Shown in pieces: positions 3,689 to 41,213 of a stretch of 41,738 nt of DNA. The DNA lies in assembly GCA_903891095.1 (NCBI GenBank), contig CAITDI010000047.1, forward strand, positions 1-41,738, given 5' to 3'. A program made the position numbers and the translations under genes. Each line of letters begins with the position of its first letter. Position 1 is the stretch's first letter. The DNA is from an uncultured bacterium (GTDB lineage Bacteria > Planctomycetota > Phycisphaerae > Phycisphaerales > SM1A02). Under the pieces are notes generated by a model, which saw nothing but the letters and a program-made list of their open reading frames with translations, had not been told where the DNA came from and made no database searches.

Positions 3689-6600
3689 GGCGTGGACCCC
3701 GCATTTGAGCCCGCATTTGAACCCATGGTCGGGTTGTACGCGCCGAACGTGTTCGCGCCCGTGCGCGCGCCCGCGGGAATCGACAGCGAGATGCCGACGA
3801 ACGTGCGATCCTCGATCAGGTCGTAGCCCGCGTTTCCGTGCATGTCGAAGTCGGGGAACGTGCGCGTGAGCGAGCCCGAGACCGCGCGCATCTCGCCGGC
3901 CTGCAGGTCGTACTGCGGGCTGAACGCGAGGAGATAGCGCTTGCCAACGCGGTAGAGCACGCCGGCCTGCATGAGCTCGGTCGATGTCGGCGCGAGGTAG
4001 CGGTACTCGAGGTACGTGCTGACCACGGGGTTGTGGCGCATCTCGAGGCCGATCGACGCGCGTGCGAGGTTCGGCATGACCGAGCCGTCGTCGGTCACGA
4101 AGTCGCGGTCTTCGAAGAGGTAGTTCGCCGTGCCGCCGAGCGTGAGCGAATCGGAGAGCTGCCAGCTCGAGTTGCCGTACGCGTGGCTGCCCCACTGCGA
4201 AAGCTCGGGGCGGAACGAGTAGAACGCGGGAATCGGCGACTGCGACCAGCGCAGGCTCGAGAACGGATTCGCCTGATCCACCGGCTGCGGCGTGAAGTTG
4301 TCGTCGCTCTGGTTGAGCACGAGACCCATGTCGAGCTTGAGCCAGTCGACGGACTGCCACGCGCCCGTGCCGCCGCGCTGTGTCTGGAAAGTCTGCTTGA
4401 CGCCGAGATTCGCGGCGGTTCCCGCCGAGGTGCCTTCGAAGTCCTGGTCGTACACGGGCAGCGCGCCGGGATCGAGCGAATCCCAGCCGTACCACAGCGT
4501 TCCGTACGGCTCGACGATGTGCCGCATGCGGTTGAGGTCGAAGAGCCTGCTCTGCACGTCGTTGTCGACGCGCACGAAGCGCATCGAGCTGCGCACGCCG
4601 CCGTTGGCCTGAAGGCGCATGCTGTCGACGTCGGCGGTGTACTGCGTGAGCTCGTTCATCGCGTAGCCCGTGGCCTCGCCCGCGACGAACGGCGTGACGG
4701 TGACCCAGTCGTTCGCCACCGGAATCGCAAGTTCCTGCCGCGAGTCGAAGCGCGCGACGGAGTTGTCGGAGTAGCCCGCGGAGTCGTACGCCTGATCGAT
4801 CGGCGACTGCGCGCCGATGACGCCGCCCCACGCGCCGGTCGGAACGCCGAGCTGCGCTGGAGTGCCCGTCGTCGGGCGAAGGCGCATCAGGCTGGCGGAC
4901 CAGTTCTGCGACCAGGTGAGCCCCTCGAACGGCATGTCGCCGAATCGGCGGTACGCGAACTCCGGAAGCTTGTCGACCGTGTAGCCGCGGCTCGCGAGCA
5001 GATACGAGTTCGAGATGAAGTCGTTCAGGTCGTGCTTCATCAGCAGCGAGAGCGAACTGTTCGCGCTCGTGCGCTCGAGCGCGATGCTCGACTCGTACTC
5101 GCGGCGGTTGTCGAAGTCGCGCTCGCGCCACGCGGAGACGAGTGTCTCGTCGGAGATGTAAGAGAACTGCGTTTTCACCGTGGTCGTCGAGCTGAGCGCC
5201 GACTGCCACTCGCTGTCGATGATGCCGCGCGCGCCCGAGTCGATCGGCACGAGCTCGCCGGAACTCGTGCGGTCGTTGCCGCCGGTGTCGTAGAGGCCGT
5301 ACAGCTCGAGCTTGCCCTTGCTGAGCGAGTCGTTGAGCTTGAAGGTCGTGCCGACGGCCGCGCCACGCTCGCTGAAACCGTCGACTTGCAGCGTGGAATC
5401 CGCGCCTTCGATCGGCGCCATGCCGGTGAGCGCCGCAAGATCCCACGTGCTGCCGAACTCGACGCCGCGGTCCTCGTCGTAGCCTGTCTCGAGCGAGCGC
5501 ACGGGGAGACGCTCGACGCGGCCTTCGTAGCCAGGAAGCGGGAAGATGCGGTTTCCGCCCGCTTCGAACGCAGCATCCTGCGCATCGACGTAGACGCCGC
5601 CGCCTTCGATGTCGGGCTGCTTGGTGACCGTCACGCGATCGACGCCGATCGCGAGGTGCGGCGTGAAGAACTCGCTGGTCGACACGGTCGCGCGCTCGGC
5701 GGTCCACTCGTCGGCGGCGACCTGACGGAGCTCTGCTGCGCGCACGTAGATCGGGAGATCGCGGCGCTTGCGGTCGTAGGTGCGGAGAACGGCATCGACG
5801 ATCGACGCGCGGTTGGTCTTGAGGTCGTAGTAGACCTGTGCGCCGCGGAGGGCGTACTCGCCGTCGCTCGCCTGGACGGCGCCTTCGAGGTAGATGCCCT
5901 CGACGGACGATGCGTCGAGCGATCGTCCGCCGGATTGGAGCGTCGCAAGCGCGTCGTGCTTGAGGAAGATCACGCTGCGTTCCGCGGACAGCAGAAGCGT
6001 GCGGTCGGCGGCTGCGGACGGCGCGCGGTACTCGATCTCGACGGAGCCCTGGATGCAGATGCGGTCGGCCTTTTGGTCGGCGACGATCGAGTCTGCGCTG
6101 AAGGAGACGGTTCCGGAAGGCTCGAAGATGGAGGTGGAGCGGCCGGCGAGTTCGGGGATGGTGATCGAATCGGGGAGGGCGACTTGGTTCGCAGCCGCGG
6201 CGAGGCTCCCTCCGGGGACAGGCATGACATCGGCAGGCTTGGTGATGGCGTCGATCGTGGCGCGCGGCTTCGCCCGCTGGGTGCCGGAGGCGATCGACGC
6301 AGTCAGGCCGCGGAGGTAACGGGACAGGCGTGTCTCACCAGCGGCGAGGAACTTTCGGCGCGCGGCTTGCGCGGCCGTGTCGTCGCCGACGGTTCCGGCG
6401 GTCGATGGCGCTTGTGCCTGGGCAGGCGAGTTGCGCTCGGTGACGGTGAGCGAAAGTTCAGTGGTGCCGCGGATTGTGGCGGTGACCAGCAGGTCCTTGC
6501 CGCTCGCACCGAGACCTGCGCGGCGGGTTGGCTCGTCGGCGCGATCGAACCAGACGGCCATCTGCGTGACAGCGGAGCCCTCGTAAGGAAGTCGGTTGAT

Positions 6601-6980: not shown

Positions 6981-7020
6981 ACATGCCTGTCCCTTCAGAC
7001 GCGTCAGGGGACAGGCATGT
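6981..7020. repeat. inverted pair of the GGACAGGCATG dispersed repeat
   Basis: ACATGCCTGTCCC (6981-6993) and GGGACAGGCATGT (7008-7020) are perfect 13-bp inverted repeats around a 14-nt loop whose centre, GACGCGTC, is itself palindromic. The pair fills the gap between the 5' end of lptD and the 3' end of the prenyltransferase gene. Confidence 0.9.
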
Positions 7021-8063: not shown

Positions 8064-8078
8064 CATGCCTGTCCCTTC
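8064..8078 (-). repeat. dispersed repeat GGACAGGCATG (exact copy, extended)
   Basis: Minus strand GAAGGGACAGGCATG, in the 112-bp gap between the divergent UbiA-type gene and ribH. The same 15-mer recurs exactly at 21796-21810, and its complement opens the pair at 6982-6996. Confidence 0.9.
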
Positions 8079-10179: not shown

Positions 10180-10848
10180 ATGGGCACGCATTCGGTCCAT
10201 ACCACACGATTCGGCAGAGTTCGGCGCGGCTTTACGATCGTCGAGATGCTTGCCGTGATCGGCGTGATCGGCGTCCTGATGTCGATCATCGTGCCGTCCA
10301 TCGCCAACGTGCGGCGCGAGGCGCTCTCCGTTTCTTGCCAGGCGAACCTTCGGCAGCTGCACGCGGCCATCGATGTCTACTCGACCATGCAGCGTGGATT
10401 GCTGCCGATGTGCGACTTCCTGCCTGCGGCGACGCCGAATGGGCCGGTGGGCGGACTGGTGGACGTGCTGGGCAAGACCGTTGAACGCGACTGCAAATGC
10501 TGGTTCTGCGCGGCGGATGACGATGTCGACGGATCGCTCGCGGCGGGAACGAGCTACATGTACATGCCCGGGTTGCTGCGCTACGCGCCACAGGTGCAGA
10601 TCCAGGTCGGCGCGCTGATGATGGCCTCGGCCGGCAGCGGGCTGACGGATCGTCAGCGCGAGCGTCAGCGGCGCGATGCGGAGGCGAAGCTCGTCGGCGT
10701 GCTGTATGCACGGAGCCCGCGCACGTTCGCGGTGCTTTACGACAGCCAGGACAGGCATCGCATCGGCTCGCGCAATCCGCGCAACGCGGTCTACATCGAC
10801 GGAAGCGTCAGCGTGATGCGCGATGCAGAGGAGACGGCTGAACCGTGA
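10180..10848 (+). CDS. type II/IV pseudopilin-like protein with prepilin leader
   Basis: 222 aa from the ATG at 10180. Residues 15-40, beginning RRGFTIVEMLAVIGVI, form a class-III prepilin signal: cleavage between Gly17 and Phe18, Glu at position +5, then one hydrophobic helix. The following VRREALSVSCQANLRQLHAAIDVYSTMQRG resembles the DUF1559/GspG-like planctomycete pseudopilins. The later DGSLAAGTSYMYMPGLLRYAP and YIDGSVSVM match the 'H...NV...DGSV' style ending of that group. Such proteins are cut by PilD-type peptidase and assembled or membrane-held. GAGAG at 10167-10171 supports this start; an in-frame ATG at 10144 is the alternative. The next gene follows after 16 nt. Confidence 0.78.
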   Translation: MGTHSVHTTRFGRVRRGFTIVEMLAVIGVIGVLMSIIVPSIANVRREALSVSCQANLRQLHAAIDVYSTMQRGLLPMCDFLPAATPNGPVGGLVDVLGKTVERDCKCWFCAADDDVDGSLAAGTSYMYMPGLLRYAPQVQIQVGALMMASAGSGLTDRQRERQRRDAEAKLVGVLYARSPRTFAVLYDSQDRHRIGSRNPRNAVYIDGSVSVMRDAEETAEP

Positions 10849-10864
10849 GCAGCGGGGCGAATGC

Positions 10865-11608
10865 ATGAGCTTCATCCAATCCATCACCGACGCAAGGGAC
10901 AGGCTTGACACCGCGATCAGCGACTCATGGGAGCATCGCCGGCGCGAGTTGGGCATGGCGATGGGCGGGGTCCTTCTGGCCGCGCTGCTGGGTGCTGGTG
11001 TGTATTGGTGGGTCGAGATCCGATTCCGTCCGCCGCCATCGATCTTCGACTCGCCTGTCGACGACGTGCTGGGCTACTTCGCGTTGGACGACTTCTCCAA
11101 GCTGCCTATCGACGAGCGCATTCGCTTCCTGCGCGAGCTCGCGGACCGGTTCCGCAAGGGCGACCAGCAGGAAAGCGCGCTGATGGCCTCGTTTTTGGCT
11201 GGGCTGTCGGGCCCGGCCCGCGAGCAGGCGACGCAGAACGCCCGCTTGCTGGCAAAGGACATACTTGCGCAGGGTGCTGACGAGTACTTGAAGCTCCCAG
11301 AGAAGGATCGCGGCAAGTACATCGATGATTGGATGGTCAAGTGGATGAAGACCGGCGAGCGCATCGCCACGGGAAAGGACGGAGAGAAGTCCGACGAGCA
11401 GCGACTGGCCGACATGCGGGCTCAAGGAGAGCGCGGGCGTCAGCGAGCGGGTTCCACGCCGTCGAACGAGATGCCGAGCTTGACCGAGGATGGCGCGGTC
11501 CGGTTCCTCGATTTCTGGGGCAGCGACGTCGAGAAGGCATCGAGCCCCAGGGAGCAGGGACAGATTGTTCGGTTCCTAGGCGATGTGCGGAAGCGTTTTG
11601 GGGGTTGA
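10865..11608 (+). CDS. single-pass membrane protein of unknown function
   Basis: 247 aa; family not recognised. A short cytoplasmic N-terminus (about 30 residues, DARDRLDTAISDSWEHRRRE) precedes one transmembrane helix (MAMGGVLLAALLGAGVYWWVE, near residues 32-52). The rest is a charged, helix-rich domain with FALDDFSKLPIDERIRFLRELADRFRKGD and a Gly/Arg-rich stretch before FLDFWGSDVEKASSPREQGQIVRFLGDVRKRF. It directly follows the pseudopilin-like gene and is probably co-transcribed, so a role beside that pseudopilin is possible but not shown. The ATG at 10865 starts after a GGGGCGA stretch; an in-frame ATG at 10823, inside the pseudopilin gene, is less likely. Confidence 0.7.
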   Translation: MSFIQSITDARDRLDTAISDSWEHRRRELGMAMGGVLLAALLGAGVYWWVEIRFRPPPSIFDSPVDDVLGYFALDDFSKLPIDERIRFLRELADRFRKGDQQESALMASFLAGLSGPAREQATQNARLLAKDILAQGADEYLKLPEKDRGKYIDDWMVKWMKTGERIATGKDGEKSDEQRLADMRAQGERGRQRAGSTPSNEMPSLTEDGAVRFLDFWGSDVEKASSPREQGQIVRFLGDVRKRFGG

Positions 11609-11636
11609 TGCGCGGGTGCGATGCACGATGCATCGA

Positions 11637-11653
11637 GGACAGGCATGTCTGTC
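11637..11653 (+). repeat. dispersed repeat GGACAGGCATG, downstream flank of the RAYT-like gene
   Basis: Exact GGACAGGCATG at 11637-11647. It extends into GACAGGCATGTCTGTC (11638-11653), a 16-bp palindrome with one G-T wobble. It lies in the 242-bp gap between the membrane protein and the 3' end of the RAYT-like gene and points toward that gene. Nothing else recognisable is in the gap (11609-11850). Confidence 0.85.
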
Positions 11654-11850
11654 GTTCACGGATGCAAACACCTGCGAACAGCACAGACAGCGCGCAGCCG
11701 GTCGATGCGCTGAGATTCCACATTCGCCGTTGTGAGTGTTGATCGGTGGCGTGGAATGAGCGATGGGTGTGGCGCTGTGCGCGCTGCGACGGCGCACGGG
11801 ATCGTGGTCGGACCGTGCCGAGTCGATTCCCAGCTGCGATATGCGTCGCT

Positions 11851-13020
11851 CTAGCGCAGCGTACGAAGCGGGATCGCCACCAGCCGGGGCTTGCCTCTAC
11901 GCAGTGCCTCGCGTGCGATTGAAACTGGGCTGCCGTAGCAAGATCCGCGTGGAACCATCGCGTCGTCGTCCGGTTCAGCCGTGCTGAACTCATGGTGGAA
12001 CGCCGTTCCGATGCCGGCTTGCGCATCGCGCCACCATGAAGACAGCCGCGCCGCAGCGGCTGACGCAAGAGCGCTCGCTGTGCCCAGCGCCACACGTGCT
12101 TGACTGATTGCGCGCCCAACAGCTACTGGCTGGATTGCCGGGATACGGCCGGGCTTTCCGTTGCGGGCGACCCGACCGACACTATCCACCCGGTCGACGT
12201 AATCCACGAGTGACCTGCGTGCCGTGAGATAGCGTGGCAGCGGAAGTGGCGGACGCTGGTGGTGGGTCTGCAAATCTAGGTAGGGGCACGCGCTGAAGGG
12301 CATCGCTGGCGTCCACCTGACACTCTGCAACACAGCGATAGCGTTTTCATTGCCATTCGCTTCTCTGATGCTCGCGTCGCGTGCCGCCTGGCAGAGTCGA
12401 TCCCATTGCGTGCGGGCCGAGGTCCAGACGCTGCCGGGAACAGACTCGGCGGCACATGCTCGGACCTCATTCAGCTCGATGTAAGTCGACACCTCAAGCA
12501 GTGCTCGTTCGTCGAGAACTCGAGGTGACTTGTAGCGTCCCTCCCAGAAGTGCCCGGTCACTCCATCCTCGCGGTTCCACAACCTTGCGCAGGGCTCCTT
12601 GAGCAGCCGATGGAAGAAGCCGAGGCTGCTGAGGTCTCTTCGGGCATCTCGAATCCTCGCTGGGCTAGCGAGCAGGGCGTTGATGTCTTCAAGAGTCGGT
12701 TCCGACTGCGCCGGGCCTGATGAACGGGTTCTCCCTCGTCGATTGGGAAGCAGGCTCAGGCGGCGAAATGCCACTTCGCGATCGGACCAGTCCCGGACCA
12801 CGTCTGGCCGGATGCCGAGCAGCAGGTGCAGGTGATTCTCCATGACGGCGAACGAGATCACGTCCACCGCGGCAAACCGTGTGAGGAACTCAAGGCGTGC
12901 GACGACCCACGCGCGGCGCGCAGGATCGGCGATGAGAGCTTCCCTGCGCACGCAACGCGATATGCAGTGATAGACGCCGGGGCTTTCGGCGTCGACGATG
13001 TCGGATCGACGAGTGGTCAC
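11851..13020 (-). CDS. REP-associated tyrosine transposase (RAYT/Y1 IS200-like) protein
   Basis: 389 aa from a GTG start. VYHCISRCVRREALI at the N-terminus and DVISFAVMENHLHLLL at 53-68 carry the HUH metal-binding pair His63-Leu-His65. GHFWEGRYKSPRVLDERALLEVSTYIELNEVRA follows, with Tyr180 in the place of the catalytic tyrosine (YI..N.VRA). These are the hallmarks of the TnpA_REP/RAYT branch of Y1 transposases, which nick single-stranded REP repeats and are usually single-copy domesticated genes. Length exceeds the usual 150-300 aa because of a C-terminal extension (residues about 230-389) that is Arg/Ala-rich. The start is supported by TAGGTT 6 nt upstream. Inward-facing copies of the GGACAGGCATG repeat sit on both sides. 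Confidence 0.88.
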   Translation of the reverse strand: MTTRRSDIVDAESPGVYHCISRCVRREALIADPARRAWVVARLEFLTRFAAVDVISFAVMENHLHLLLGIRPDVVRDWSDREVAFRRLSLLPNRRGRTRSSGPAQSEPTLEDINALLASPARIRDARRDLSSLGFFHRLLKEPCARLWNREDGVTGHFWEGRYKSPRVLDERALLEVSTYIELNEVRACAAESVPGSVWTSARTQWDRLCQAARDASIREANGNENAIAVLQSVRWTPAMPFSACPYLDLQTHHQRPPLPLPRYLTARRSLVDYVDRVDSVGRVARNGKPGRIPAIQPVAVGRAISQARVALGTASALASAAAARLSSWWRDAQAGIGTAFHHEFSTAEPDDDAMVPRGSCYGSPVSIAREALRRGKPRLVAIPLRTLR

Positions 13021-13026
13021 CGCTTG

Positions 13027-13032
13027 AACCTA
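13027..13032 (-). promoter_or_regulatory. -10 box of leaderless promoter for the RAYT-like gene
   Basis: Minus-strand TAGGTT, 6 nt before the GTG at 13020. Confidence 0.45.
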
Positions 13033-13125
13033 CACGGCTCAGGAGCTCGCCCTTGAAATCACGCACTTTTTCGGACAATCGCCATTGTTTTTCGGCCGGT
13101 GTGGCGGCTCGCGGTTCGTTCTTGC

Positions 13126-13140
13126 GATGCCTGTCCCTTC
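13126..13140 (-). repeat. dispersed repeat (one mismatch), upstream flank of the RAYT-like gene
   Basis: Minus strand GAAGGGACAGGCATC, differing from the consensus only in the last base. It lies 106 bp upstream of the RAYT-like start and faces into the gene, so it is inverted relative to the copy at 11637. It sits 9 bp beyond the 3' end of the helicase gene. Confidence 0.85.
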
Positions 13141-13148
13141 GCCGGGTT

Positions 13149-15677
13149 CTAGCGCCATTCATGCCGCGGATATCTCCGCTTGAGTTCATTCCGCATCTCG
13201 GGATAGAGCACGCGCCAGAAATTCGCAAGGTCTTGCGTGACTTGCAGCGGACGGTAGTTCGGCCCGAGGATCTCCACGACCAGCGGAACGCGCCCGCCCG
13301 CGACCTTCGGTGTCTCATCGAGACCGTAGAAGTCTTGGATCTTCGCGCGGCCTCGTGGCGGAGCGCCGATCGCGTACTCGATCTTCATCCTGAAACCGCG
13401 CGGCATTGCGATGGCCGCTGGCGCCATCTTCTCGACGAACTGGATGTCGTCCCACGAAAGCGCGCTGCGAATGGCGTCAATCGCGGCCTTCGCCTCGACT
13501 TCGCGCGCGCGAACGCAGCCAGATGCGAGTTCGGTACGGATGACGTCGAGATCCTCGTCGGAGTATGTGAGGAGATTGCGTTCGGGAAACCACCCCGCGA
13601 CGCACCGAACACGCGTGATCCATGGTTCGCAGTGCTCATCCCATCCGTCGAGCTTTATCTCGGCCGACTTGATTCGTGCGACGAGTTCGCGCTCCACCGC
13701 AGGCGATGGTTTTGCGACACGCGCCTTGCGGGCCACCACGATGTCGAGGAATAGTTCCTCCTCCAGTGTCTCGACGGCACGCGTGTCCTTGTTCCACGCC
13801 GCCGTAATCCTTCGGTCGAACGCCTGCGGAAGTGCCTGCTCGACGGCTTCGCGTGATACCGGGTGCGCGACCGGGATCGTGACGAGGCGGTCGTGGTCGG
13901 GACCAGATTCGCGCACCTCGAGCGCAACGATGAGCCCCGGATCGTGCACCAGCGACTCCTTGGCGAGTTCGACCTTGCGGCGGCCTGCGAGTGCGCAGTG
14001 CAATCGCTCCCGTTCGAGCTTGAACGCGATGCGGTCGATGAAGCCGGCGATGAGGGCTTGATCGAGCGCGGCGTTGGACGTGTCGTTGCCTGTCCCTTTG
14101 ACGCTGCGGGCGAGCTGGTCCGCCACCAGGATCGCCTCGCGAATCGCAAGTCGGTCTGCCTCGCGCGGAAGGGATCGATTCTCCGCGGCCTCGACGAGCT
14201 TCTCACGCACCAGCGCGTCGCTCCGGGGATCGTCTCTCTCGAGCAGTGCCAGGAGCGCAAGCGGGGGCACCCCCTCGCAAGGGTCGCGATCAGAAAGTGC
14301 AGCGGCGATGCGTGCCACACGGCCGGCGCAGCCTAGCCGTGCCCCTTCAACGAGCGCGCGGGCCAGCCGCGGATGCGCAGGAACGCGCGCCATCGCGCGA
14401 CCGATCTCGGTCAGGCCCTTCGAGGGTGCCGCGGGGTCGATTGCGCCGAGCGTCGCGAGGGTCTTCGTCGCTTCGCCCATCCGTGTCGCGTCGGGCGGAT
14501 CGAGCCAGGGAAAGCGCGCGAAGTCGTCGATGCCCAGCGACATGGTCTCGAGCATCGCGCTCGCGAGGTCGATGCGGGCGACTTCGGCCATGGTGTGAGA
14601 GTCCCGCCGCTCATGCTCCGCGATGCTCCACAGCCGGATCGCACGACCGGGAGCGGTGCGGCCTGCGCGGCCCGCGCGCTGTTCGGCGCTCGCCTTCGAG
14701 ATCGGCTCGACGCGCAGCGTGTCGAGTCCACGGAGCGGGTCGTACCGATGGACACGCGCGAGGCCGGAGTCGATCACGGTGCGGACGCCGTCGATCGTGA
14801 GGCTTGTCTCGGCGACGTTGGTCGAAACGATGATGCGTCGGCGTTTCGTGGGATCTACTGCGGAAACGGCGCGGTCCTGCTCTTCCGGCGGCAGCGAGCC
14901 GTGCAGCGGGAGGACCTCGGCGTTCATGCCTGTCCTCGCAAGTGCGATCTTGGCCCGCTCGCATGTCCGCGCAATCTCATACCCACCCGCCATGAACACC
15001 AGAATGTGCCCGGGATCGTCCGTCCGCCCCGCGGCGAAGCTCTCCAGCACGCGCTCGATCGCTGCGCCCGCGAGATCCCACGGCGTTTCCCGCGAAGGCT
15101 TGGCGAGATGCTCGATGGCCACCGGAAATGACCTGCCCTCCGCGACGACAGTCTTGCAGTCCAGGAAGCCCTCAAGCCGCTGCGCCTCCAGCGTCGCGCT
15201 GGTCACGATCAACCTGAGGTCCCTGCGATGCCTGTCCTGTATGAGCTTGACGAGGCCGAGCGCCACATCCACCGCCACCGACCGCTCATGGAACTCATCG
15301 AGGATCACCGCGCCGATGCGCGCCAACGTCGGATCGCGCTGCATCTGCCGCACGAAGAGTCCGTCCGTCACGAACCGCACGCGCGTGCGCTCCGAAACCC
15401 GGCGGTCATGCCGCGTCTCGTAGCCCACGAGTCCGCCGACCTCCCCGCCCAGTTCTTTCGCCACGCGCGTCGCCAGCATGCGCGCCGCAAGCCTGCGCGG
15501 CTCGAGCACGACGATGTCGCCCTTCACCGCGTCCAGATCGAGCAGCATCTTCGGCAGCTGCGTGCTCTTTCCCGAACCGGTCGCTGCGACAACGACCAGC
15601 CGATTCGCCGCGGTCAGCGCATCGCGGATCTCCCCGCGCGCGCGCTGGATCGGAAGCTCTTCCGGCGTGCGCGCCAT
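13149..15677 (-). CDS. hrpB: ATP-dependent helicase, HrpB family
   Basis: 842 aa, a normal HrpB size. DEAH/RHA superfamily 2 motifs: Walker A ATGSGKST at 32-39, motif Ib LEPRRLAARMLATRVA from 58, motif II DEFH at 127-130 (the HrpB DEFHER form), SAT at 160-162, VSTNVAETSLTIDGV near 284-298, and QRAGRAGR at 333-340. The C-terminal region after 350 contains the winged-helix and HrpB-specific parts. The family is annotated as an RNA or DNA helicase without a settled substrate. The ATG at 15677 shares a base with the stop of the LOG-family gene (TGATG), so the two are coupled. The gene contains one exact and one single-mismatch copy of the dispersed repeat. Confidence 0.93.
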   Translation of the reverse strand: MARTPEELPIQRARGEIRDALTAANRLVVVAATGSGKSTQLPKMLLDLDAVKGDIVVLEPRRLAARMLATRVAKELGGEVGGLVGYETRHDRRVSERTRVRFVTDGLFVRQMQRDPTLARIGAVILDEFHERSVAVDVALGLVKLIQDRHRRDLRLIVTSATLEAQRLEGFLDCKTVVAEGRSFPVAIEHLAKPSRETPWDLAGAAIERVLESFAAGRTDDPGHILVFMAGGYEIARTCERAKIALARTGMNAEVLPLHGSLPPEEQDRAVSAVDPTKRRRIIVSTNVAETSLTIDGVRTVIDSGLARVHRYDPLRGLDTLRVEPISKASAEQRAGRAGRTAPGRAIRLWSIAEHERRDSHTMAEVARIDLASAMLETMSLGIDDFARFPWLDPPDATRMGEATKTLATLGAIDPAAPSKGLTEIGRAMARVPAHPRLARALVEGARLGCAGRVARIAAALSDRDPCEGVPPLALLALLERDDPRSDALVREKLVEAAENRSLPREADRLAIREAILVADQLARSVKGTGNDTSNAALDQALIAGFIDRIAFKLERERLHCALAGRRKVELAKESLVHDPGLIVALEVRESGPDHDRLVTIPVAHPVSREAVEQALPQAFDRRITAAWNKDTRAVETLEEELFLDIVVARKARVAKPSPAVERELVARIKSAEIKLDGWDEHCEPWITRVRCVAGWFPERNLLTYSDEDLDVIRTELASGCVRAREVEAKAAIDAIRSALSWDDIQFVEKMAPAAIAMPRGFRMKIEYAIGAPPRGRAKIQDFYGLDETPKVAGGRVPLVVEILGPNYRPLQVTQDLANFWRVLYPEMRNELKRRYPRHEWR
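14925..14935 (-). repeat. dispersed repeat GGACAGGCATG inside the helicase gene
   Basis: Exact copy on the coding strand, read as codons AGG-ACA-GGC-ATG (RTGM). A single-mismatch copy at 15227-15237 in the same gene is read in another frame (QDRH). Confidence 0.8.
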
Positions 15678-16456
15678 CAGATCGCGCTCTCGTGCCACGA
15701 ATCGCCGCTGCGCCGACGGTGCCGCATTCCGCCGCGCGTTCCGTCGCCGGACACGCGTTCCTCCTCGTCGGTCGCGAAGCGCGGAAGCTCCGGCGCGACG
15801 ACGCGCTGGCCGATGTGCGATTCCCACACGATCTTCACGGCTTCGTCCACGCTGTCGGTGATCGAGAAGATGTCGAAGTCGCCCGGGCTCACCGTCGCGT
15901 ATTCATCGCGCAGCGTCGTCTTCATCCACGCAACGAGCGGAGCCCAGAACTTCGTGCCCACGAGCACGACGGGAAACGGCACGATCTTCAGCGTCTGGAT
16001 CAGCGTGAGCGCCTCGAAGAGCTCGTCCATCGTGCCGAATCCGCCGGGGAAGATGATGAATCCGCGCGCGTACTTCACGAACATCACCTTGCGCACGAAG
16101 AAGTAGCGGAACTCGATGTCGACCGTCTGGTACGGATTCGGCCGCTGCTCCATCGGCAGCACGATGTTGAGGCCGATGCTTGTTCCGCCGGCTTCCTTCG
16201 CGCCCTTGTTCGCGGCTTCCATCACGCCCGGGCCGCCGCCGGTGATCACGGCGAATCCCTTTTCCGCGAGCATGCGGCCGCACGTCTCGGCCTGCTGGTA
16301 CGAAGGATGCTCGGGCTTCAGTCGCGCGGATCCGAACACCGCGACGCCCGGCGCGCATCGCGACATCGTCTCCACTCCGTCGACGAACTCGCTCAGGATG
16401 CGGAGTGCGCGCCAACTTTCGAGCGCGAGCGACTGCTTTCGGTCGGAGGTGTCCAT
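15677..16456 (-). CDS. LOG family protein (TIGR00730-type Rossmann fold)
   Basis: 259 aa. GVAVFGSARLKPEH at 37-50, GGGPGVMEAANKGAKEAGG at 73-91 and FPGGFGTMDELFEALT at 136-151 are the LOG/TIGR00730 signature; the GGGxGxM and PGGxGTxxE loops bind nucleotide. Family members are cytokinin-activating phosphoribohydrolases that release a nucleobase from a nucleoside 5'-monophosphate. Many bacterial homologues are annotated only as lysine decarboxylase-like; that name should not be used. The start at 16456 is preferred to an in-frame ATG at 16519 because TACCTT lies 6 nt upstream. A basic C-terminal tail (GGMRHRRRSGDSWHES) is unusual. It heads a two-gene unit with hrpB. Confidence 0.92.
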   Translation of the reverse strand: MDTSDRKQSLALESWRALRILSEFVDGVETMSRCAPGVAVFGSARLKPEHPSYQQAETCGRMLAEKGFAVITGGGPGVMEAANKGAKEAGGTSIGLNIVLPMEQRPNPYQTVDIEFRYFFVRKVMFVKYARGFIIFPGGFGTMDELFEALTLIQTLKIVPFPVVLVGTKFWAPLVAWMKTTLRDEYATVSPGDFDIFSITDSVDEAVKIVWESHIGQRVVAPELPRFATDEEERVSGDGTRGGMRHRRRSGDSWHESAI

Positions 16457-21593: not shown

Positions 21594-21806
21594 GGACAGG
21601 CATGCACCGACGGGCACATGGCGCGCTTCCCAGCTCGTCCGCCGTGGCATGGCTGTCCTGTTTGCAGTGAGAGAGGACAGGCATGTGCAGTCCGAGGCCA
21701 GGTTCCTCCCTGCCTCGAATCCCGAACCCCGAACCCCGGACTGCGAACCCCGGACTGCGAACCCCGGGCCGCGCCGTACCGCGTACCCCCTGTGACATGC
21801 CTGTCC
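21594..21806. repeat. cluster of four dispersed-repeat copies in the leuS-lipoprotein gap
   Basis: Exact copies at 21594-21604 (+), 21675-21685 (+) and 21796-21806 (-), plus a single-mismatch copy at 21648-21658 (-): four within 213 bp. The gap 21542-21840 has no gene; besides these it holds a heptamer tandem array and the promoter of the next gene. Confidence 0.9.
21721..21762. repeat. 7/14-bp tandem array
   Basis: CCCGAAC twice (21721-21734) followed by CCCGGACTGCGAAC twice (21735-21762) and a partial unit. It lies between the second and third exact repeat copies; its role is unknown. Confidence 0.85.
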
Positions 21807-29246: not shown

Positions 29247-30107
29247 ATGCCAGCATCAAGATCACGAACCACCGAGTGGCGCCGTTCGCTTGAGCAGTTG
29301 CGTTCCCGTGAAGGAGCGATCGAGATCGCCGTCGCGCACGACCATCCCGGTGGCGACGAGGGCATCCTGAACGCGGCCGACCTCGTGTGGCGCGTCCGCG
29401 TGCTCGACCTTGCGACCGACGAGATCACCGTCGACCTGCCGTTTGCGCTTGGCCGCGCGATCGAGCTGCCGGTCGGCACCGAGATCGTCGGAGCGATCGC
29501 GATCGGTCAGAACCGCTGGATGTTCCGTTCGAAGGTGCTCGGCGCTTGGACGCCGAAGGCGCCGTTTCCGCGCACGCATCGCGGAATCCGCATCACGCTT
29601 CCCGATCACGTCGAGCGATGCCTTCGGCGCAGCATGCGCGTCGATGTCGCGTCGATCACGCTTCCGAAGGTCGAGATGTGGCCGCTCCTCGAGCCGAGGA
29701 CAGCCATGCCGGCCGAGCGCGCGAGCGAGCTGGCGTTCAAGGCGGCGATGGCGGGCGAGAGGCCCGCGCCGATGAGCGACGACATGCTTCCGACGGTGGG
29801 TCCGGGCTTCAAGGCCTCGCTGATCAACCTCGGTGGCGGCGGACTTGGCGTGCTGGTCGAGCCGAACGACTCGGCGGCGCTGTCGAGGCACCGGATGTTC
29901 TGGATCCGCTTCACGCTGGGTTCGATCATGCCTGTCCCCGTATGCGCCACGGCGCGGGTGGTCCACACCCACATGGACAGCTCGCACCGGATCTACGCGG
30001 GCATCTCGTTCGACTTCGACTTCAATCCCGCGCATCAGCGCGTGGTCGCCGATCAGATCGTCCAGGCGATCGGTCGATTGACCGGCGCGCAGCGCAAAGC
30101 TGCCTGA
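29247..30107 (+). CDS. PilZ-like domain protein
   Basis: 286 aa. The N-terminal half resembles a YcgR-type flanking beta domain (ITVDLPFALGRAIELPVGTEIVGAIAIGQNRWMFRSKVLG). The PilZ RxxxR motif is R127-R-S-M-R131 (CLRRSMRVDV). The second motif is NLGGGGLGV (from Asn194), where the family's D/NxSxxG has Gly for Ser, so cyclic-di-GMP binding is plausible but not certain. A GGAG about 7 nt before the ATG suits translation with a leader. An exact dispersed-repeat copy lies inside the gene and is read as MPVP at residues 228-231. The gene ends at a bidirectional hairpin. Confidence 0.75.
   Translation: MPASRSRTTEWRRSLEQLRSREGAIEIAVAHDHPGGDEGILNAADLVWRVRVLDLATDEITVDLPFALGRAIELPVGTEIVGAIAIGQNRWMFRSKVLGAWTPKAPFPRTHRGIRITLPDHVERCLRRSMRVDVASITLPKVEMWPLLEPRTAMPAERASELAFKAAMAGERPAPMSDDMLPTVGPGFKASLINLGGGGLGVLVEPNDSAALSRHRMFWIRFTLGSIMPVPVCATARVVHTHMDSSHRIYAGISFDFDFNPAHQRVVADQIVQAIGRLTGAQRKAA
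29927..29937 (-). repeat. dispersed repeat GGACAGGCATG inside the PilZ-like gene
   Basis: Exact copy antisense to the gene; a single-mismatch copy lies 229 bp upstream at 29698-29708. Translated as MPVP between two strands of the PilZ domain. Confidence 0.8.
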
Positions 30108-30109
30108 AA

Positions 30110-30120
30110 GGACAGGCATG
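30110..30120 (+). repeat. dispersed repeat GGACAGGCATG, just after the PilZ-like stop
   Basis: Exact copy beginning 3 bp after the PilZ-like gene stop and preceding the bidirectional hairpin. Confidence 0.85.
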
Positions 30121-30142
30121 CACATCGGCCGAAAAACAAAAC

Positions 30143-30923: not shown

Positions 30924-31053
30924 GGACAGGCATGCTCAACGGTGGGACCCGCCAAGCGACGTAATCATGGCACCGTTGTGACGATCCGCAAACGTAATTG
31001 CAACATTCTGGCTGAGATGCCCGCCGACACCACACGGCGACGGGACAGGCATG
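30924..31053 (+). repeat. two dispersed-repeat copies between the PTPG-tail gene and pabB
   Basis: Exact GGACAGGCATG at 30924-30934 and 31043-31053, same orientation, 119 bp apart, in the 223-bp gap 30855-31077. The gap should also hold the minus-strand promoter of the PTPG-tail gene, which I cannot place. Confidence 0.85.
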
Positions 31054-31077
31054 CGCAGCTTCAGGCCGCCGCCCTCG

Positions 31078-32466
31078 TTATCCGCGGCTCAGCCGCGCGA
31101 TCGCCCGCGCCTTCGCATGCGTCTCCGCAACCTCCGCCGCCGGCACGCTCTCGACCACGATCCCGCATCCCGCGTGGTACGCGACCTTCCGCAGTGCGCC
31201 CGCGCCCGTGCCCGCGGCTGCATCCGCACCATCGACCTGCGCCGTCCGGATCGCCACGCTCAGCGCAGCATGACCCGACCGCGCGATGAACCCGATCGCC
31301 CCGCAGTAGAACCCGCGAGCGCACGGCTCGAGCTCGTCGATGATCTGCATCGCCCGCACCTTCGGCGCGCCCGTCACCGAGCCCGGCGGGAACGTCGCCG
31401 CCAGCAGCTCGCGCCACGACAGGTCCTCGCGGAGCCGCGCCGACACCTCGGCCACCCCGTGATGCACCGTGCTGTGCGTCTCGAGCACGCGCGCCTGTGC
31501 GACGCGCACCGAGCCGATCTCCGCCACGCGCCCGAGGTCGTTGCGCATCAGGTCGACGATCATCGCGAGTTCCGCCGCGTCCTTGCCGCTGTCGACGAGT
31601 TCGCGCGCGTCGACATCCGACGGCCGCGTGCCCTTGATCGGCCGCGTGACGACCGAGCCGTCGGGCCGCACGCGCAGGAACAGCTCCGGGCTCATCGACA
31701 CCAGGCATCCGCCGCCAGGCAGGTCGATCGCCGCGCCGAACCACGCGCCGTTCCGCGAGATCGCCGCATGCGCGAAGCTCCGCAGATCGCCCGCGAAATC
31801 CGCAGAAAACCGCCGCGCGACGTTCGCCTGGAACGCGTCGCCCGCGCGGATGTACTCGACCACGCGCGCGACGTTTGCCGCGTACGCCGCGTCCGGCGCA
31901 TCGGGAACGAGCGGCGACAGGCTCCACGCGCGCGAAGCATGCGTTTCTGCCGCGGAAACCGCCGCAAGCGCCGGCGGCCGGCCGACCGCGTGCAGTTCGC
32001 CCGTCGCGTGATCGAGGCACCAGGCGTCCTCGCACCAGTGCAGCACGGCGTGCGGAGCGGTGGTCCCGCCATGACCCTCGTCATCGTGCCGTCGCGGCGC
32101 ACCGACGTGCGGCTCGAAGCACGCACCGAGCCCGTAGCCGAGCGCGACGACCCAGCCGCCGTCGAAGGGCGGCGTGCGCGCGCTGGAGTTCGTCGCCGCG
32201 ACCGCCGCGCCGCCGCGCGGCGTCCGCGCCAGCGCCGTGTCCAGCGCCGCGATCGCATCCTCAGCCGACAGCGACCCGTCGATCACCACCGTCTCGCGCG
32301 GCGCGGCGAACACGCTCCACGAGTTCTGCGCGCGCTCGCCGCCGCCGGAGACCAGCGCCGCGAGCGGCACCTCGCGCGGCCACCGCAGGAGCACCTCCGC
32401 GGCCTTCGCTGCGGAATCCGCGCCGTTGCTGGCGCTGCTGCTGGTTGTGACGGCGGTCGCGGGCAT
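31078..32466 (-). CDS. pabB: aminodeoxychorismate synthase component I (chorismate-binding)
   Basis: 462 aa. Chorismate-binding fold: YAANVARVVEYIRAGDAFQANVARRF near 194-220, SMSPELFLRV at 257-266, TRPIKGTRPSDVDA at 274-287, LIVDLMRNDLGRV-like AMIVDLMRNDLGRVAEIG, THSTVHHGVAEV, and FPPGSVTGAPKVRAMQII. The PIKGT motif (Lys279 region) distinguishes PabB from TrpE, where the Lys is usually Ala. The enzyme makes 4-amino-4-deoxychorismate for folate synthesis, using ammonia from the PabA glutaminase. folC lies 14 kb away, not linked. The start is supported by TACCAT 9 nt upstream. Confidence 0.92.
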   Translation of the reverse strand: MPATAVTTSSSASNGADSAAKAAEVLLRWPREVPLAALVSGGGERAQNSWSVFAAPRETVVIDGSLSAEDAIAALDTALARTPRGGAAVAATNSSARTPPFDGGWVVALGYGLGACFEPHVGAPRRHDDEGHGGTTAPHAVLHWCEDAWCLDHATGELHAVGRPPALAAVSAAETHASRAWSLSPLVPDAPDAAYAANVARVVEYIRAGDAFQANVARRFSADFAGDLRSFAHAAISRNGAWFGAAIDLPGGGCLVSMSPELFLRVRPDGSVVTRPIKGTRPSDVDARELVDSGKDAAELAMIVDLMRNDLGRVAEIGSVRVAQARVLETHSTVHHGVAEVSARLREDLSWRELLAATFPPGSVTGAPKVRAMQIIDELEPCARGFYCGAIGFIARSGHAALSVAIRTAQVDGADAAAGTGAGALRKVAYHAGCGIVVESVPAAEVAETHAKARAIARLSRG

Positions 32467-32475
32467 CGAGCGGCG

Positions 32476-32481
32476 ATGGTA
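32476..32481 (-). promoter_or_regulatory. -10 box of near-leaderless promoter for pabB
   Basis: Minus-strand TACCAT with 9 nt to the ATG at 32466. The plus-strand ppdK has a TACACT at 32597-32602, implying a leader of roughly 55 nt for that gene. Confidence 0.45.
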
Positions 32482-32662
32482 CGGGGGCGCGTCGCGGGAT
32501 CACAGTGAAACCCCTGGGAATTGCCTGCGGAAAACCCCGCGCAAAACCTCGCGTCACCCTCGCGTTCCGCGCGCCATCGCACCCTCGAACAACTTGTACA
32601 CTCCGCGATCCACCGCGGCCGGAAGACGCCGCGTACGCACACATCGAGAAAGCACACGAACC

Positions 32663-35479: not shown

Positions 35480-35515
35480 AGCGCCCGCGGCGAAAGCCGC
35501 GGGCGCTGTCGTTTT
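35480..35515 (+). terminator. rho-independent terminator after ppdK
   Basis: Perfect 12-bp stem AGCGCCCGCGGC / GCCGCGGGCGCT (35480-35491, 35496-35507) with a GAAA tetraloop, then GTCGTTTT. Confidence 0.9.
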
Positions 35516-35518
35516 GCG

Positions 35519-35660
35519 CCAACCGTCACTGGGAAGGTGAGTGTGGTTGTCACGCAAACCGCCGCCGCGGAGCGGCGGGTGCCACTTCCTCGAGTCCGGA
35601 GGACGAGAGGTAGTGGTCGCCGTGCATCAGAGTTCACGCGGGCGCGCCGCGCAGCGGCGG
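35519..35660 (+). repeat. structured ~140-bp repeat, copy A
   Basis: The first of three direct copies. Core 35541-35660 is nearly identical to 41235-41354 and to the copy ending about 39886. It holds three hairpins: CCGCC...GGCGG around 35560-35579; an imperfect 35-nt hairpin starting CCACTTCCTCG with inner GTCC-GGA-GGAC (about 35582-35616); and CGCCGC-GCA-GCGGCG (about 35645-35659). It lies between the ppdK terminator and the ATPase operator. From 35661 to 35754 I see nothing else. Translated frames across the copies look alike but lack codon-type variation. Confidence 0.9.
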
Positions 35661-35754
35661 CCACCTCCGGCGATGCGAACGCGCCCGCGCGGCGCCCCGC
35701 GGGTTCGAGAACCCTCGCGATAGCCGCCTGCGCGGCCGAGGCGCTCGCCGCTTC

Positions 35755-35808
35755 TACAAATTACTCAGTGTGCTGATTGATTTTACTCAGTCTACTGAGT
35801 AATTTGTA
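35755..35808. promoter_or_regulatory. palindromic operator and leaderless promoter of the AAA/DUF4143 gene
   Basis: An AT-rich island. TTACTCAGT occurs at 35761-35769 and 35783-35791, and its inverse ACTGAGTAA at 35794-35802, so TTACTCAGT-CT-ACTGAGTAA is a near-perfect palindrome. TACAAATTACTCAGT (35755-35769) and ACTGAGTAATTTGTA (35794-35808) form a longer 15-bp inverted repeat. A promoter runs through it: -35 TTGATT (35777-35782), 17-nt spacer, -10 TAATTT (35800-35805), then 6 nt to the ATG at 35812. A protein on the palindrome would block the promoter. Confidence 0.7.
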
Positions 35809-35811
35809 AGC

Positions 35812-37008
35812 ATGCCCGAGATCATCCGCGCCGAGGCCGAGACGCTCCGCGACCGCCTGGTCGGGCCGCGCCGCCACATCCAGGTGGTCGTCGGCCCGCG
35901 GCAGGTGGGCAAGACGACGCTCGTTCGCTGGGCGCTTGGGGCGAGCGGCCTGCCGACGCACTACGCGACCGCCGATGATCCCGGGAGTCTTGCCGAGGGT
36001 TGGCTCCGGCAGCAATGGGAGCTCGGCCGGGCTAGGGCGGCGGCCAACCGCCGCAAGGGCGCCGTGCTCGCGATCGATGAGCTCCAGAAGCTGCCCAACT
36101 GGTCGGAGCAGGTGAAGCGCCTTTGGGACGAGGACGCGGCCGCGCGTTGCCCGCTGCGCGTGGTTGCGCTCGGGTCCTCGCCGCTGCTCCTCCAGAAGGG
36201 GCTCACCGAGAGCCTGGCGGGGCGTTTCGAGGCCATTCGCATCCCGCACTGGTCGTTCGACGAGATGCGGCGCGCGTTCAAGTTCGATCTCGACAGGTTC
36301 CTTGTGTTCGGCGGCTATCCCGGTGCCGCGTCGCTCGCACGCGACCAGGCGCGCTGGGCGGCCTACGTGCGCGAGTCGCTCGTCGACACCACCCTCAACC
36401 TCGATGTCCTGCAGCTCTCGCGCGTCGACAAGCCTGCGCTGTTGCGGCGGCTCTTCGAGCTCGCCTGCACGCATTCGGGGCAGCAGCTCTCGTATCAGAA
36501 GATGCTCGGCCAGCTTCAGGACGCCGGCAACACCGTCACGCTCGCGCACTACCTGCGGCTGCTCGAGGCGGCGGGCATGGTGCGCGGCATTGAGAAGTAC
36601 GCCGGCGACATGATCCGTCAGCGCGCGTCGAGCCCGAAGTTCCAGGTGCTGAACACGGCGCTCACTTCGGCGCTCGCGGGCGACGAGCCGCGCAAGCTCC
36701 TTGCGTCGCCCGACCTCAGGGGCCGGCTGGTCGAGAGCGCAGTGGGCGCGCACCTCGCGAACGCCGCTGCGACGGGGCGCTGCAGGCTCTTCTACTGGCG
36801 AGAGCGAAATCTCGAGGTCGACTTCGTGGTCGAGCGCGCGGGCAAGGTGCTCGCGATCGAGGTCAAGAGCGGTCGACGGCGCGATGGTCTGCCTGGCGTT
36901 GGAGCGTTTCTCAAGGCGTACCCGAAGGCGCGCACGCTGCTCGTCGGAGCGGACGGGGTGGCGGTCGAGGAATTCCTGCTGAAGCCGGTGGAGGCGTGGT
37001 TCGGATGA
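35812..37008 (+). CDS. AAA ATPase with DUF4143 / PD-(D/E)XK-like C-terminus
   Basis: 398 aa. N-terminal P-loop: Walker A GPRQVGKTT at 28-36 and Walker B VLAIDE at 85-90, followed by sensor-like VVALGSSPLLL. The middle has YLRLLEAAGMVRGIEKYAG, the winged-helix-like part of this group. The C-terminus has RLFYWRERNLEVDFVVERAGKVLAIEVKSG, with Asp337 and Glu350-V-Lys352 forming a PD-(D/E)XK-like site, the signature of DUF4143 (COG1373-type). Such ATPases are patchily distributed, often near mobile or stress loci, with unknown function. The leaderless promoter and palindrome upstream suggest self-regulation. It converges on the metalloprotease gene with a 19-nt gap. Confidence 0.88.
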   Translation: MPEIIRAEAETLRDRLVGPRRHIQVVVGPRQVGKTTLVRWALGASGLPTHYATADDPGSLAEGWLRQQWELGRARAAANRRKGAVLAIDELQKLPNWSEQVKRLWDEDAAARCPLRVVALGSSPLLLQKGLTESLAGRFEAIRIPHWSFDEMRRAFKFDLDRFLVFGGYPGAASLARDQARWAAYVRESLVDTTLNLDVLQLSRVDKPALLRRLFELACTHSGQQLSYQKMLGQLQDAGNTVTLAHYLRLLEAAGMVRGIEKYAGDMIRQRASSPKFQVLNTALTSALAGDEPRKLLASPDLRGRLVESAVGAHLANAAATGRCRLFYWRERNLEVDFVVERAGKVLAIEVKSGRRRDGLPGVGAFLKAYPKARTLLVGADGVAVEEFLLKPVEAWFG

Positions 37009-37027
37009 GTTCGTCCGCCTCGCTCGG

Positions 37028-39511: not shown

Positions 39512-39656
39512 CGGTGGCGGCTCCTCGTCGCAGCCCGATTGCGGCACCTTGTCGCCGAGACGTGGGCGACGGCAGCCGAAGGGCGGCGACGCGCAAAGTC
39601 CGCGCCGGCGGCAGGGATCTCTCAGTGGGAAACAGGAATTTCGCGGAGTGGCGGAT

Positions 39657-39886
39657 GTGTTCGCGCGCCGACCGTCCTCGAGACGCTGGGTGTGGTTCGC
39701 ACGCGAACCGCCGCCGCGGAGCGGCGGGTGTGTTCGCGCGCCGACCGTCCTCGAGACGCTGGGTGTGGTTCTCACGCAAACCGCCGCCGCGGAGCGGCGG
39801 GTGCCACTTCCTCGAGTCCGGAGGACGAGAGGTAGTGATCGCCGTGCATCAGGGTTCACGCGGGTGCGCCGCGTAGCGGCGGTCCG
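39657..39886 (+). repeat. structured ~140-bp repeat, copy B, with a tandem partial duplicate
   Basis: A 73-bp unit beginning GTGTTCGCGCGCCGACC is tandem at 39657-39729 and 39730-39802; the second copy continues into the full repeat core to about 39886. The unit's second half is the repeat's first hairpin. The full copy differs from copy A at only a few bases. The gap 39512-39656 upstream shows nothing else recognisable; 39887-40091 is plain sequence before the operator. Confidence 0.85.
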
Positions 39887-40091
39887 CGCGCACTTTCGAC
39901 AAACTTTCCGATCCACCCGTGTGAGCGTGATAGTTTCGCGTGCAACGCGTCCGGCGCACATCTCGGCCCATCCGCCGCGGGCATCCTCCGCGCTCAGTCG
40001 CGCGCTCCACGCCTCGAGATGTCCATTGCCGTTCCCGTCGGGGAGTCGGTCGGTCTCGGCCGTCCCGCCGCGCCGTTCGCGTGAACAAATA

Positions 40092-40121
40092 CTTGACATA
40101 TGTGTCAAGCAAAGCAATAGT
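40092..40121 (+). promoter_or_regulatory. promoter with overlapping inverted repeat for the nucleotidyltransferase/XRE pair
   Basis: CTTGACATATGTGTCAAG (40092-40109) is an inverted repeat, CTTGACA / TGTCAAG, around TATG. It contains the -35 TTGACA (40093-40098). After a 17-nt spacer comes AATAGT (40116-40121) as -10. Transcription would start near 40128, leaving a 32-nt leader with AGAGGAAAAAGGGGA before the ATG at 40160. The XRE protein is the likely binder. Confidence 0.65.
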
Positions 40122-40159
40122 GTCGAGTATGAGCACTCAAAGAGGAAAAAGGGGAATCG

Positions 40160-40714
40160 ATGCATCCACTGCCCGGCTTCACGCCCGACGGAGTCCTTCC
40201 GCCAGGCGAGTACACGATGACCCTGGACGAGCTCGAGGAGTCGATCCTCGTGCTCGGGCCGGGACAACCGTGGGACCATCCCGTCTGGGACGCGGCTTGG
40301 CGGCAGGTGCTCGTCAGGAACCTGCGGGTGATGGCTGGACAGCTCCATCAGGTCGGGATCCACGACATCTTCGTGGACGGATCGTTCGTCGAGGACAAGG
40401 ACCATCCGAACGACATCGACGGCTACTTCGTGTGCGATCCGTTTCGCTTTGCGTCGGGGCAGCTGGAGCAGGATCTCAACCGCATCGATCCCGCGAAGTG
40501 CTGGACGTGGGATCACCGAGCTCGAAGGCCGCATCGCGGCTATCCGAAGCGTCAGTTGCCCATGTGGCACGCATACCGCGTCGAGCTCTATCCGCACTAC
40601 TCAGGGCTTGTCGCGGGCGTGGATGCTCATGGCAACGAGCTGGAGTTTCCCGCCTGGTTCCGCCAGCGGCGGACCAACGGCGCGGCGAAGGGCATTGTCA
40701 GAATCGCCACGTGA
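40160..40714 (+). CDS. nucleotidyltransferase-like protein (DUF6932-type), likely toxin or effector of a pair
   Basis: 184 aa. GIHDIFVDGSFVEDKDHPNDIDGYFVCDP at 66-94 is a nucleotidyltransferase-fold active site: Gly74-Ser75 followed by Asp85-x-Asp87, the GS...DxD pattern of minimal nucleotidyltransferases. The rest (CWTWDHRARRPHRGYPKRQLPMWHAYRVELYPHY) resembles the DUF6932 family as I recall it; that name is from memory. A promoter with an inverted repeat precedes it and a Shine-Dalgarno sequence (AGGGGA) lies 6 nt before the ATG. The XRE gene follows after 16 nt. By analogy with other nucleotidyltransferase/antitoxin pairs it may be the toxin; this is inference. Confidence 0.75.
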   Translation: MHPLPGFTPDGVLPPGEYTMTLDELEESILVLGPGQPWDHPVWDAAWRQVLVRNLRVMAGQLHQVGIHDIFVDGSFVEDKDHPNDIDGYFVCDPFRFASGQLEQDLNRIDPAKCWTWDHRARRPHRGYPKRQLPMWHAYRVELYPHYSGLVAGVDAHGNELEFPAWFRQRRTNGAAKGIVRIAT

Positions 40715-40730
40715 CGAAGGAGCGCGCAGC

Positions 40731-41192: not shown

Positions 41193-41213
41193 GGGGTTCG
41201 CGGAGTCGCGGAG

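Follow-up and report, generated by a model that had tools for sequence, protein, structure and literature searches.

The transposase gene of the window (the whole 41,738-nucleotide stretch of DNA analysed here) and the two short repeats, or boxes, that face it from either side probably form a TIRYT-type element, in which an HUH/Y1 transposase uses a short directional box as its recognition signal. Sequence comparison shows that boxes near such genes nearly all face the gene, in several phyla, that the core of the box goes with the clade of the protein, and that the box found in genome-wide excess is mostly one flanking a resident gene. Boxes also occur as solo copies, as tandem arrays and as REPIN-like inverted doublets, and in the two genomes counted they are concentrated near the genes. 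In related bacteria a change of enzyme tends to go with a change of word, and the gene has moved together with its words as a unit; the two therefore look like parts of one mobile system. The features of the window are collected in Table 1.

Table 1. Positions of the transposase gene, its cassette and the boxes in the window
Feature	Position	Strand	Remarks
HUH/Y1 transposase gene	11851..13020	minus	389 aa, GTG start, TIRYT / TnpAY1 subclass 2.3-like
Cassette with both boxes, gene X stop to HrpB stop	11609..13148		
Downstream inward-facing box GGACAGGCATG	11637..11647	+	pattern search
Upstream inward-facing box GGGACAGGCATC	13126..13137	minus	pattern search
Doublet, two boxes pointing apart	6982..7019		6982-6992 minus, 7009-7019 plus
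Dispersed box GGACAGGCATG	8064..8074	minus	genome pattern search
Dispersed box	21594..21604	+	genome pattern search
Dispersed box	21675..21685	+	genome pattern search
Dispersed box	21796..21806	minus	genome pattern search
Dispersed box	29927..29937	minus	genome pattern search
Dispersed box	30110..30120	+	genome pattern search
Dispersed box	30924..30934	+	genome pattern search
Dispersed box	31043..31053	+	its ATG opens ORF 31051-32508
Box-like match within long ORF, may be chance	6216..6226	+	
Box-like match within HrpB, may be chance	14925..14935	minus	

The first-pass annotation had described a Y1-type protein with an HUH motif and a catalytic tyrosine, and the translation bears this out: it contains NHLH (H63, H65) and Y180, and none of the three residues varies in alignments of 24 and of 27 rows that include the window protein. 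The protein matched Pfam Y1_Tnp (4.3e-5, 24.1 bits, cut-off 23); the NCBIfam model REP_Tyr_transpos ('REP-associated tyrosine transposase') gave 1e-7, yet its 32 bits lie below the cut-off of 80, and NF033573 scored 11.9 bits against a cut-off of 55. A PHROGs search with the window protein returned no family. Searched against the PDB by sequence, the single protein had no match and a profile gave weak matches only, the best transposase at E 0.2. An AlphaFold2 model built from the 27-row alignment (mean pLDDT 85.5) had as its top PDB match 4er8, E. coli TnpA-REP bound to a REP hairpin (Z 12.0, rmsd 2.8, 158 aligned; Foldseek E 1.8e-3), while the IS200/IS605 transposases of IS608 and ISDra2 gave Z values of 8-9. 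Membership of the window protein in the TnpA-REP/RAYT superfamily is thus supported. The HuH-Tyr spacing is 115 residues (65 to 180), a WE motif is present (W159 E160), and the protein reads NHLH and YIELNE; relatives such as L034, L046 and L053 have Y[VA]DLNP. Near the N-terminus, residues 17-25 (YHCISRCVR) include H18, C19, S21, R22 and C23, invariant in 24 aligned rows and containing a conserved cysteine pair.

The two repeat copies reported earlier around the gene, GGACAGGCATG at 11637 on the plus strand and GGGACAGGCATC at 13126 on the minus strand, were both recovered, each facing the open reading frame. The same arrangement was observed around related genes. In the 500 bp on either side of 28 genes (the window gene and 27 relatives), GGACAGGC occurred 78 times inward and 6 times outward; 23 of the genes had at least one inward copy, 14 had them on both sides, and five (L035, L041, L045, L052 and L056) had no copy nearby. 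In a wider set of 80 of at least 544 related loci, five of which repeat loci of the 28-gene set, and which came from Planctomycetota, Gammaproteobacteria, Verrucomicrobia, Holophagae and others, 48 copies faced inward and 3 outward, 20 loci having an inward copy and two loci (L119 and L163) supplying 22 of the 48. When no motif was presupposed, the top inward-biased 8-mer in these 80 loci was GACACCCA (36 loci inward, 5 outward, both sides in 17), and GGACAGGC appeared in the same ranking with 19 loci inward and 2 outward. Octamers shared between flanks exceeded their control in the inward sense in 78 of 108 loci, with the reverse in 24. The pattern GGACA-nn-CA (searched as NNNCANNCA) gave locus counts of 104 inward vs 15 outward, which divide by nn as 36:7 for GG, 31:2 for CC, 10:2 for GC and 6:0 for CG.

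The box is short and directional, approximately N6-GGACA-nn-CA-N2, with nn = GG in the window. In the base composition of 278 non-redundant copies, conservation around the core extends from about -6 to +3, and there is no GTAG/GTGG (GT[AG]G) foot. The best stem around the core of these copies scored 2.45 vs 2.26 +- 0.06 in shuffles, 2 of 500 shuffles being as high; since this excess is small and related copies can cause it, no hairpin is claimed for the box. A conserved stem with GGACAGGC as its loop looked perfect in L042 and L096 and was rejected because the excess over the 278 copies is small. The 16-bp near-palindrome noticed in the downstream copy does exist (11638-11653, 7 of 8 pairs), but it is peculiar to one of 35 copies: of the other 34, one forms 6 pairs and 33 form 2-5, so the near-palindrome does not characterise the repeat. 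The label 'REP' was consequently given up, as the box has no palindrome of its own (a weak stem at most) and no GTAG-type foot.

Boxes also occur in larger arrangements. The shortest tandem units, of 16-18 bp, approximate the box itself (L096, L097 and L106), other arrays have units of 33-45 bp, and arrays reach 10 units. Inverted two-box doublets with a shared spacer were found in genome G031 in L070 (twice), L224 (twice) and L225, together with box-box palindromes in L226, L227 and beside the gene of L029/L232. On the fetched stretches, dispersed copies, compared by their outer bases, had as their nearest gene-flanking box one of the same genome in 102.6 of 176 cases, with 21.4 expected; by genome, the figures were 51.7/65 in G031, 37.4/59 in G008, 7/8 in G009 and a weak 6.5/44 in the window's own genome.

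In the window, GGACAGGCAT with at most one mismatch occurred 24 times against a shuffle mean of 1.87, and none of 100 shuffles was as high. Its genome contains 35 copies of GGACAGGCATG and none of the reversed control, and 13 of the 35 lie on the window's 41.7-kb contig, which makes up 1.2% of the genome (binomial p 8e-17); in the relative G008, 45 of 95 box copies lie on the three contigs carrying its transposase genes. Array copies are not independent, and p values for this clustering therefore overstate the case. By a crude gene model on chosen stretches of the window's genome, 14 of 46 boxes fall outside ORFs, ORF coverage being 90%. GC bias and chance were ruled out as sources of the box excess by the shuffles and the reversed-pattern controls. 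The two other Y1 genes of this genome (on contigs C117 and C38) had no GGACANNCA within 400 bp, one of them having 20 bp of upstream sequence only. The Y1 gene on C117 (genome G000; L026 near 4912 and 5682) encodes about 205 aa and has on both sides palindromic repeats of about 60 bp around CAGTGCCTGGCACTG, which are far more REP-like than the window's box.

A few further observations concern the surroundings of the boxes. In several copies of GGACAGGCATG the ATG is, or resembles, the first codon of an ORF, which places the box immediately ahead of a possible start (6982-6992 and the last dispersed box of Table 1 in the window; L017 5478 and L025 5020 by eye). The sequence GGCCGAAAAACAA, at 13085-13097 and 30127-30139, follows a box in both places, about 31 and 9 bp past the core. 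The window also holds a 162-bp direct repeat in three copies (35499-41354; the others 87% and 82% like the first), which is unrelated to the box, and a tandem array of about 12-bp units at 144-239.

The check proposed earlier, that the repeat should follow the gene in other genomes, was run, and repeat abundance tracks the gene, with one genome against. Twelve of 61 genomes had a match to the protein at E<=0.001, G047 and G059 barely so. Within the window's genus, GGGACAGGCA occurred in 18-92 copies in the six genomes with the gene and in 1-11 copies in ten without a match. In a family set of 181 genomes, 56 passed E<=0.001, many with a short and weak match; gene presence was set at E<1e-20, a line drawn after the list was seen, and 18 genomes qualified. 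At least 25 copies of RGGACAGGCA were found in 12 of these 18 vs 1 of the 163 without the gene (Fisher p 1.3e-13). The counter-example, G010, is a member of the same genus whose 78% complete genome yielded 47 copies but no gene; its copies may be orphan boxes, or the gene may lie on a missing contig. In two of the 18 the gene is a contig-edge fragment only (G201 with 37 copies and G159 with 4).

Six gene-bearing genomes had few RGGACAGGCA copies (G061, G114, G026, G111, G169 and G159), and the flanks were read in five of them. The inward words there were GGACACCCA in G169, GGCCATGCA or GGCCACGCA in G026, GGCCACGCA in G061, TGGACACACC and TGGCCAGACC in G114 and GGACACAC in G111. Genome-wide, G169 contains GGACACCCA 128 times vs 6 for the reversed control, with GGACAGGCA at 11 vs 17, and G061 contains GGCCAYGCAC 125 times vs 13; in G026 the latter stands at 85/39, a ratio no better than the 26/8 of the window's genome, where such a gene is absent. 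Of the six exceptions, two (G169 and G061) thus clearly carry another flanking box that is abundant genome-wide. With abundance following the gene and box type mostly following the resident gene, the repeat behaves as the cognate element of the protein, as had been proposed.

The general form of the box is GGACA-nn-CA, with nn depending on the protein clade. Genome-wide counts (matches/reversed control) of GGACACCCA and GGACAGGCA, respectively, were 4/15 and 160/6 in G031, 8/8 and 125/18 in G008, and 3/11 and 71/23 in the window's genome. G099, in which the genes found are CC-type only, had 91/5 for GGACACCCA, yet also 64/30 for GGACAGGCA; G036, with GG-type genes, was weak for both (GGACAGGCA 57/42, GGACACCCA 43/23); and G115, with one gene of each type, had 125 vs 37 and 47 vs 30 for the two boxes. 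The four Gammaproteobacteria gave 25/14 and 27/12 (G207), 25/32 and 17/14 (G210), 20/39 and 21/8 (G212), and 3/19 and 13/6 (G208), and in the counted Aeromonas, Colwellia and Shewanella genomes the box is scarcely or not in genome-wide excess. In a quickly built tree of 112 proteins, with stars on 36 of its 108 inner branches, the box label, with 'none' treated as a label, changed 43 times vs 68.9 in shuffles, none of 200 being as low, and there were at least 8 swaps between GG and CC. The GG[AC]CAnnCA label was lacking in 28 of 117 genes, some of which have AGACACCCA or AGCCACCCA. A search for specificity residues in independent tree pairs gave, among the pairs listed, 2 on supported branches and was uninformative. 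The natural variants along the tree (nn = GG, CC, GC or CG; C for A at position 3) are ready-made pairs for finding which residues read which base in these enzymes, which presumably cleave and rejoin single-stranded DNA.

The genomic position of the gene was also compared. In the genus, gene X (10823-11608) has HrpB (13149-15827) as its convergent neighbour, and in four genomes (G000, G008, G009 and G014) the two are separated by the cassette, always in one orientation. The gap is 3-12 bp in G015, G005, G001 and G011, and about 0.2 kb without a transposase gene in G004; X is present in 15 genomes, and the other six had no HrpB match on the fetched stretch. A single origin of the cassette at this site was not rejected (p-AU 0.147). 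The claim of a single-copy, vertically inherited gene therefore survives in part: the gene is single-copy in the window's genome and the site is common to four genus genomes, so vertical inheritance may hold there. As a rule it is not supported, since a relative contains up to 8 matches and, elsewhere, whole cassettes that are much alike lie at different sites of one genome.

The evidence for moved cassettes comes from relatives outside the window's genus. In G034 (a Phycisphaeraceae MAG, by locus L115), the cassettes of L235 and L236 are 99.1% identical over 2,283 bp and those of L237 and L238 99.8% over 1,472 bp, both pairs lying in 7-kb stretches that are otherwise unmatched. The first pair has inward GGACACGCA arrays at both ends; the second has left-end repeats of another form and a right end without a clear box array. 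Eleven further pairs from named genomes were compared. Three copies in Colwellia sp. TT2012 (92.6-95.2%) and the cassettes of Aeromonas sp. RU39B (92.9%) are alike over 1.2-1.3 kb, and this similarity begins and ends within about 20 bp of the boxes, the left box being its exact limit in Aeromonas. Between two Planctomycetaceae copies (90.9%) only the left end is common, in two Shewanella pairs similarity stops inside the gene at its 3' end, and the other four pairs are too short or too divergent for a judgement. A mere assembly echo is disfavoured in these mostly draft assemblies because array lengths differ. Cassettes have thus been copied to new sites in relatives, with ends at or near boxes in most readable cases.

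Mechanistically, Tyr180 would nick single-stranded DNA at or beside the box to give a 5'-phosphotyrosine, after which the enzyme would transfer the nicked DNA elsewhere. Being inverted, the boxes of the two ends are complementary within a single strand, and by annealing they could form the duplex that a REP provides alone; this would account for the retention of a non-palindromic box in inverted pairs. The same activity would yield solo and tandem boxes as non-autonomous products, with arrays enlarged by replication slippage, and the arrays could also be plain slippage. The box has two fixed CA steps (GGA-CA-nn-CA), which by analogy may bear on the cleavage site, a point that is suggestive and no more. 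More broadly, and tentatively, these genes may represent a widespread HUH/Y1 lineage with an evolvable target word, in which the needed structure forms between two annealed inverted boxes, so that autonomous cassettes, REPIN-like doublets and solo arrays would all rely on a single signal.

Other explanations share part of this evidence. An ordinary inverted-repeat transposon, whose boxes would be plain terminal inverted repeats, with scattered copies left as dead insertion ends and slippage arrays and an enzyme that moves no lone boxes, would agree with cassette boundaries at or near boxes and with arrays of near-identical 16-45 bp units. We consider it unlikely, as the enzyme is of the HUH/Y1 type, REPIN-like doublets with a shared spacer occur at several places in G031, and in G008, G031 and G009, though weakly in the window's genome, solo boxes have outer bases like those of the flanking boxes there; visual inspection of the few cassette ends read revealed no target-site duplication. 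A canonical RAYT/REPtron, that is, a domesticated, vertically inherited transposase mobilising REP hairpins, shares with the present system its superfamily and fold, the inverse orientation of the flanking repeats, a locus common to four genomes and, in G031, inverted doublets like REPINs. The small stem excess of a box without a clear hairpin, the missing foot, the moved cassettes of relatives and the number of matches per genome all speak against it, and we regard it as quite improbable.

It could also be argued that the protein binds the box to control its own promoter, dispersed copies being a small regulon or decoys. The upstream inward boxes do lie 62-436 bp before the gene, and some boxes abut start codons, as at the ORF beginning at 31051. 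An operator would hardly account for the 33 of 78 inward boxes that lie downstream of the gene, for tandem arrays of up to 10 units or for cassettes that end at or near boxes, and this explanation appears very remote. The moved cassettes suggest a branch that is more than domesticated, a point of relevance to the origin of RAYTs from transposons.

The element is box-ended and TIRYT-like, its closest known kinds being TIRYTs/TIRtrons and TnpAY1 subclass 2.3. The available portion of Di Nocera et al. 2013 (PMC3733652) names TIRYTs/TIRtrons and gives their motif as GGGGWSAS; according to that portion, TIR families are moderately abundant without obvious correlation with genes, and occur in some genomes as singles, dimers and groups. 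As there, a RAYT-like gene is bounded here by inverted repeats unrelated to REPs, and the motif is fitted by GGGGACAG(GCA), seen in relatives, e.g. AATCGGGGACAGG; the window boxes, compared with the motif and not with published TIRs, match it at 7 of 8 positions each (AGGGACAG and GAGGACAG). Beyond what this portion describes, the motif is narrowed here to a core of 9 bases, with a dinucleotide that varies by clade; box and gene covary, and cassettes have moved within genomes.

In the accessible part of Quentin et al. 2018 (PMC6006769), 20 of 26 TIRYTs are placed in subclass 2.1, in which 2.3 is embedded, and no REP-like sequences are given for subclasses 2.1 and 2.3. The features of subclass 2.3 reported in that part recur here: a long protein with a long C-terminal part, several copies per genome, a WE motif, a HuH-Tyr distance of about 110 and a length near 325 (115 and 389 aa in the window), and Y[VA]DLNP in relatives of the window protein. 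In contrast, the motifs given there are NHYH and YVDLNP where the window protein has NHLH and YIELNE, and that part reports no REP-like repeats whereas inward GGACAGGC accompanies 23 of 28 genes here. In a literature search, mostly without subscription journals, none of the papers listed gave repeats for subclass 2.3, and a search for the box word returned, among the matches listed, titles on other subjects. Likely members of a subclass described in the accessible text as lacking REP-like repeats do, therefore, have repeats here, and since these are short directional boxes, hairpin searches would miss them.

TnpA-REP, according to the available text of PMC8266576, cuts single-stranded DNA at CT, and in one case also at CA, beside the REP with a 5'-phosphotyrosine, and the tetranucleotide foot of the REP takes part in site choice. 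The window protein resembles it in its modelled HUH/Y1 fold with a single Tyr (4er8) and in its predicted catalysis, and the boxes resemble REPs, as portrayed in the available parts of PMC8266576 and PMC6006769, in the inverse flanking repeats, the dispersed copies concentrated near the gene and the gene-linked repeat subfamilies; they differ in having no palindromic REP, no GTAG foot and, in relatives, moved cassettes. The IS200/IS605 transposases of IS608 and ISDra2 have the HUH/Y1 core in common, but use subterminal hairpins, where inverted directional boxes without a clear stem around the core are found here. The first-pass view of the protein as the RAYT of this repeat family was thus right as to superfamily and cognate repeat, but its precise kind is TIRYT/TIRtron, not REPtron. 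What is new over the TIRYT literature is a sharper, testable signal for a known kind.
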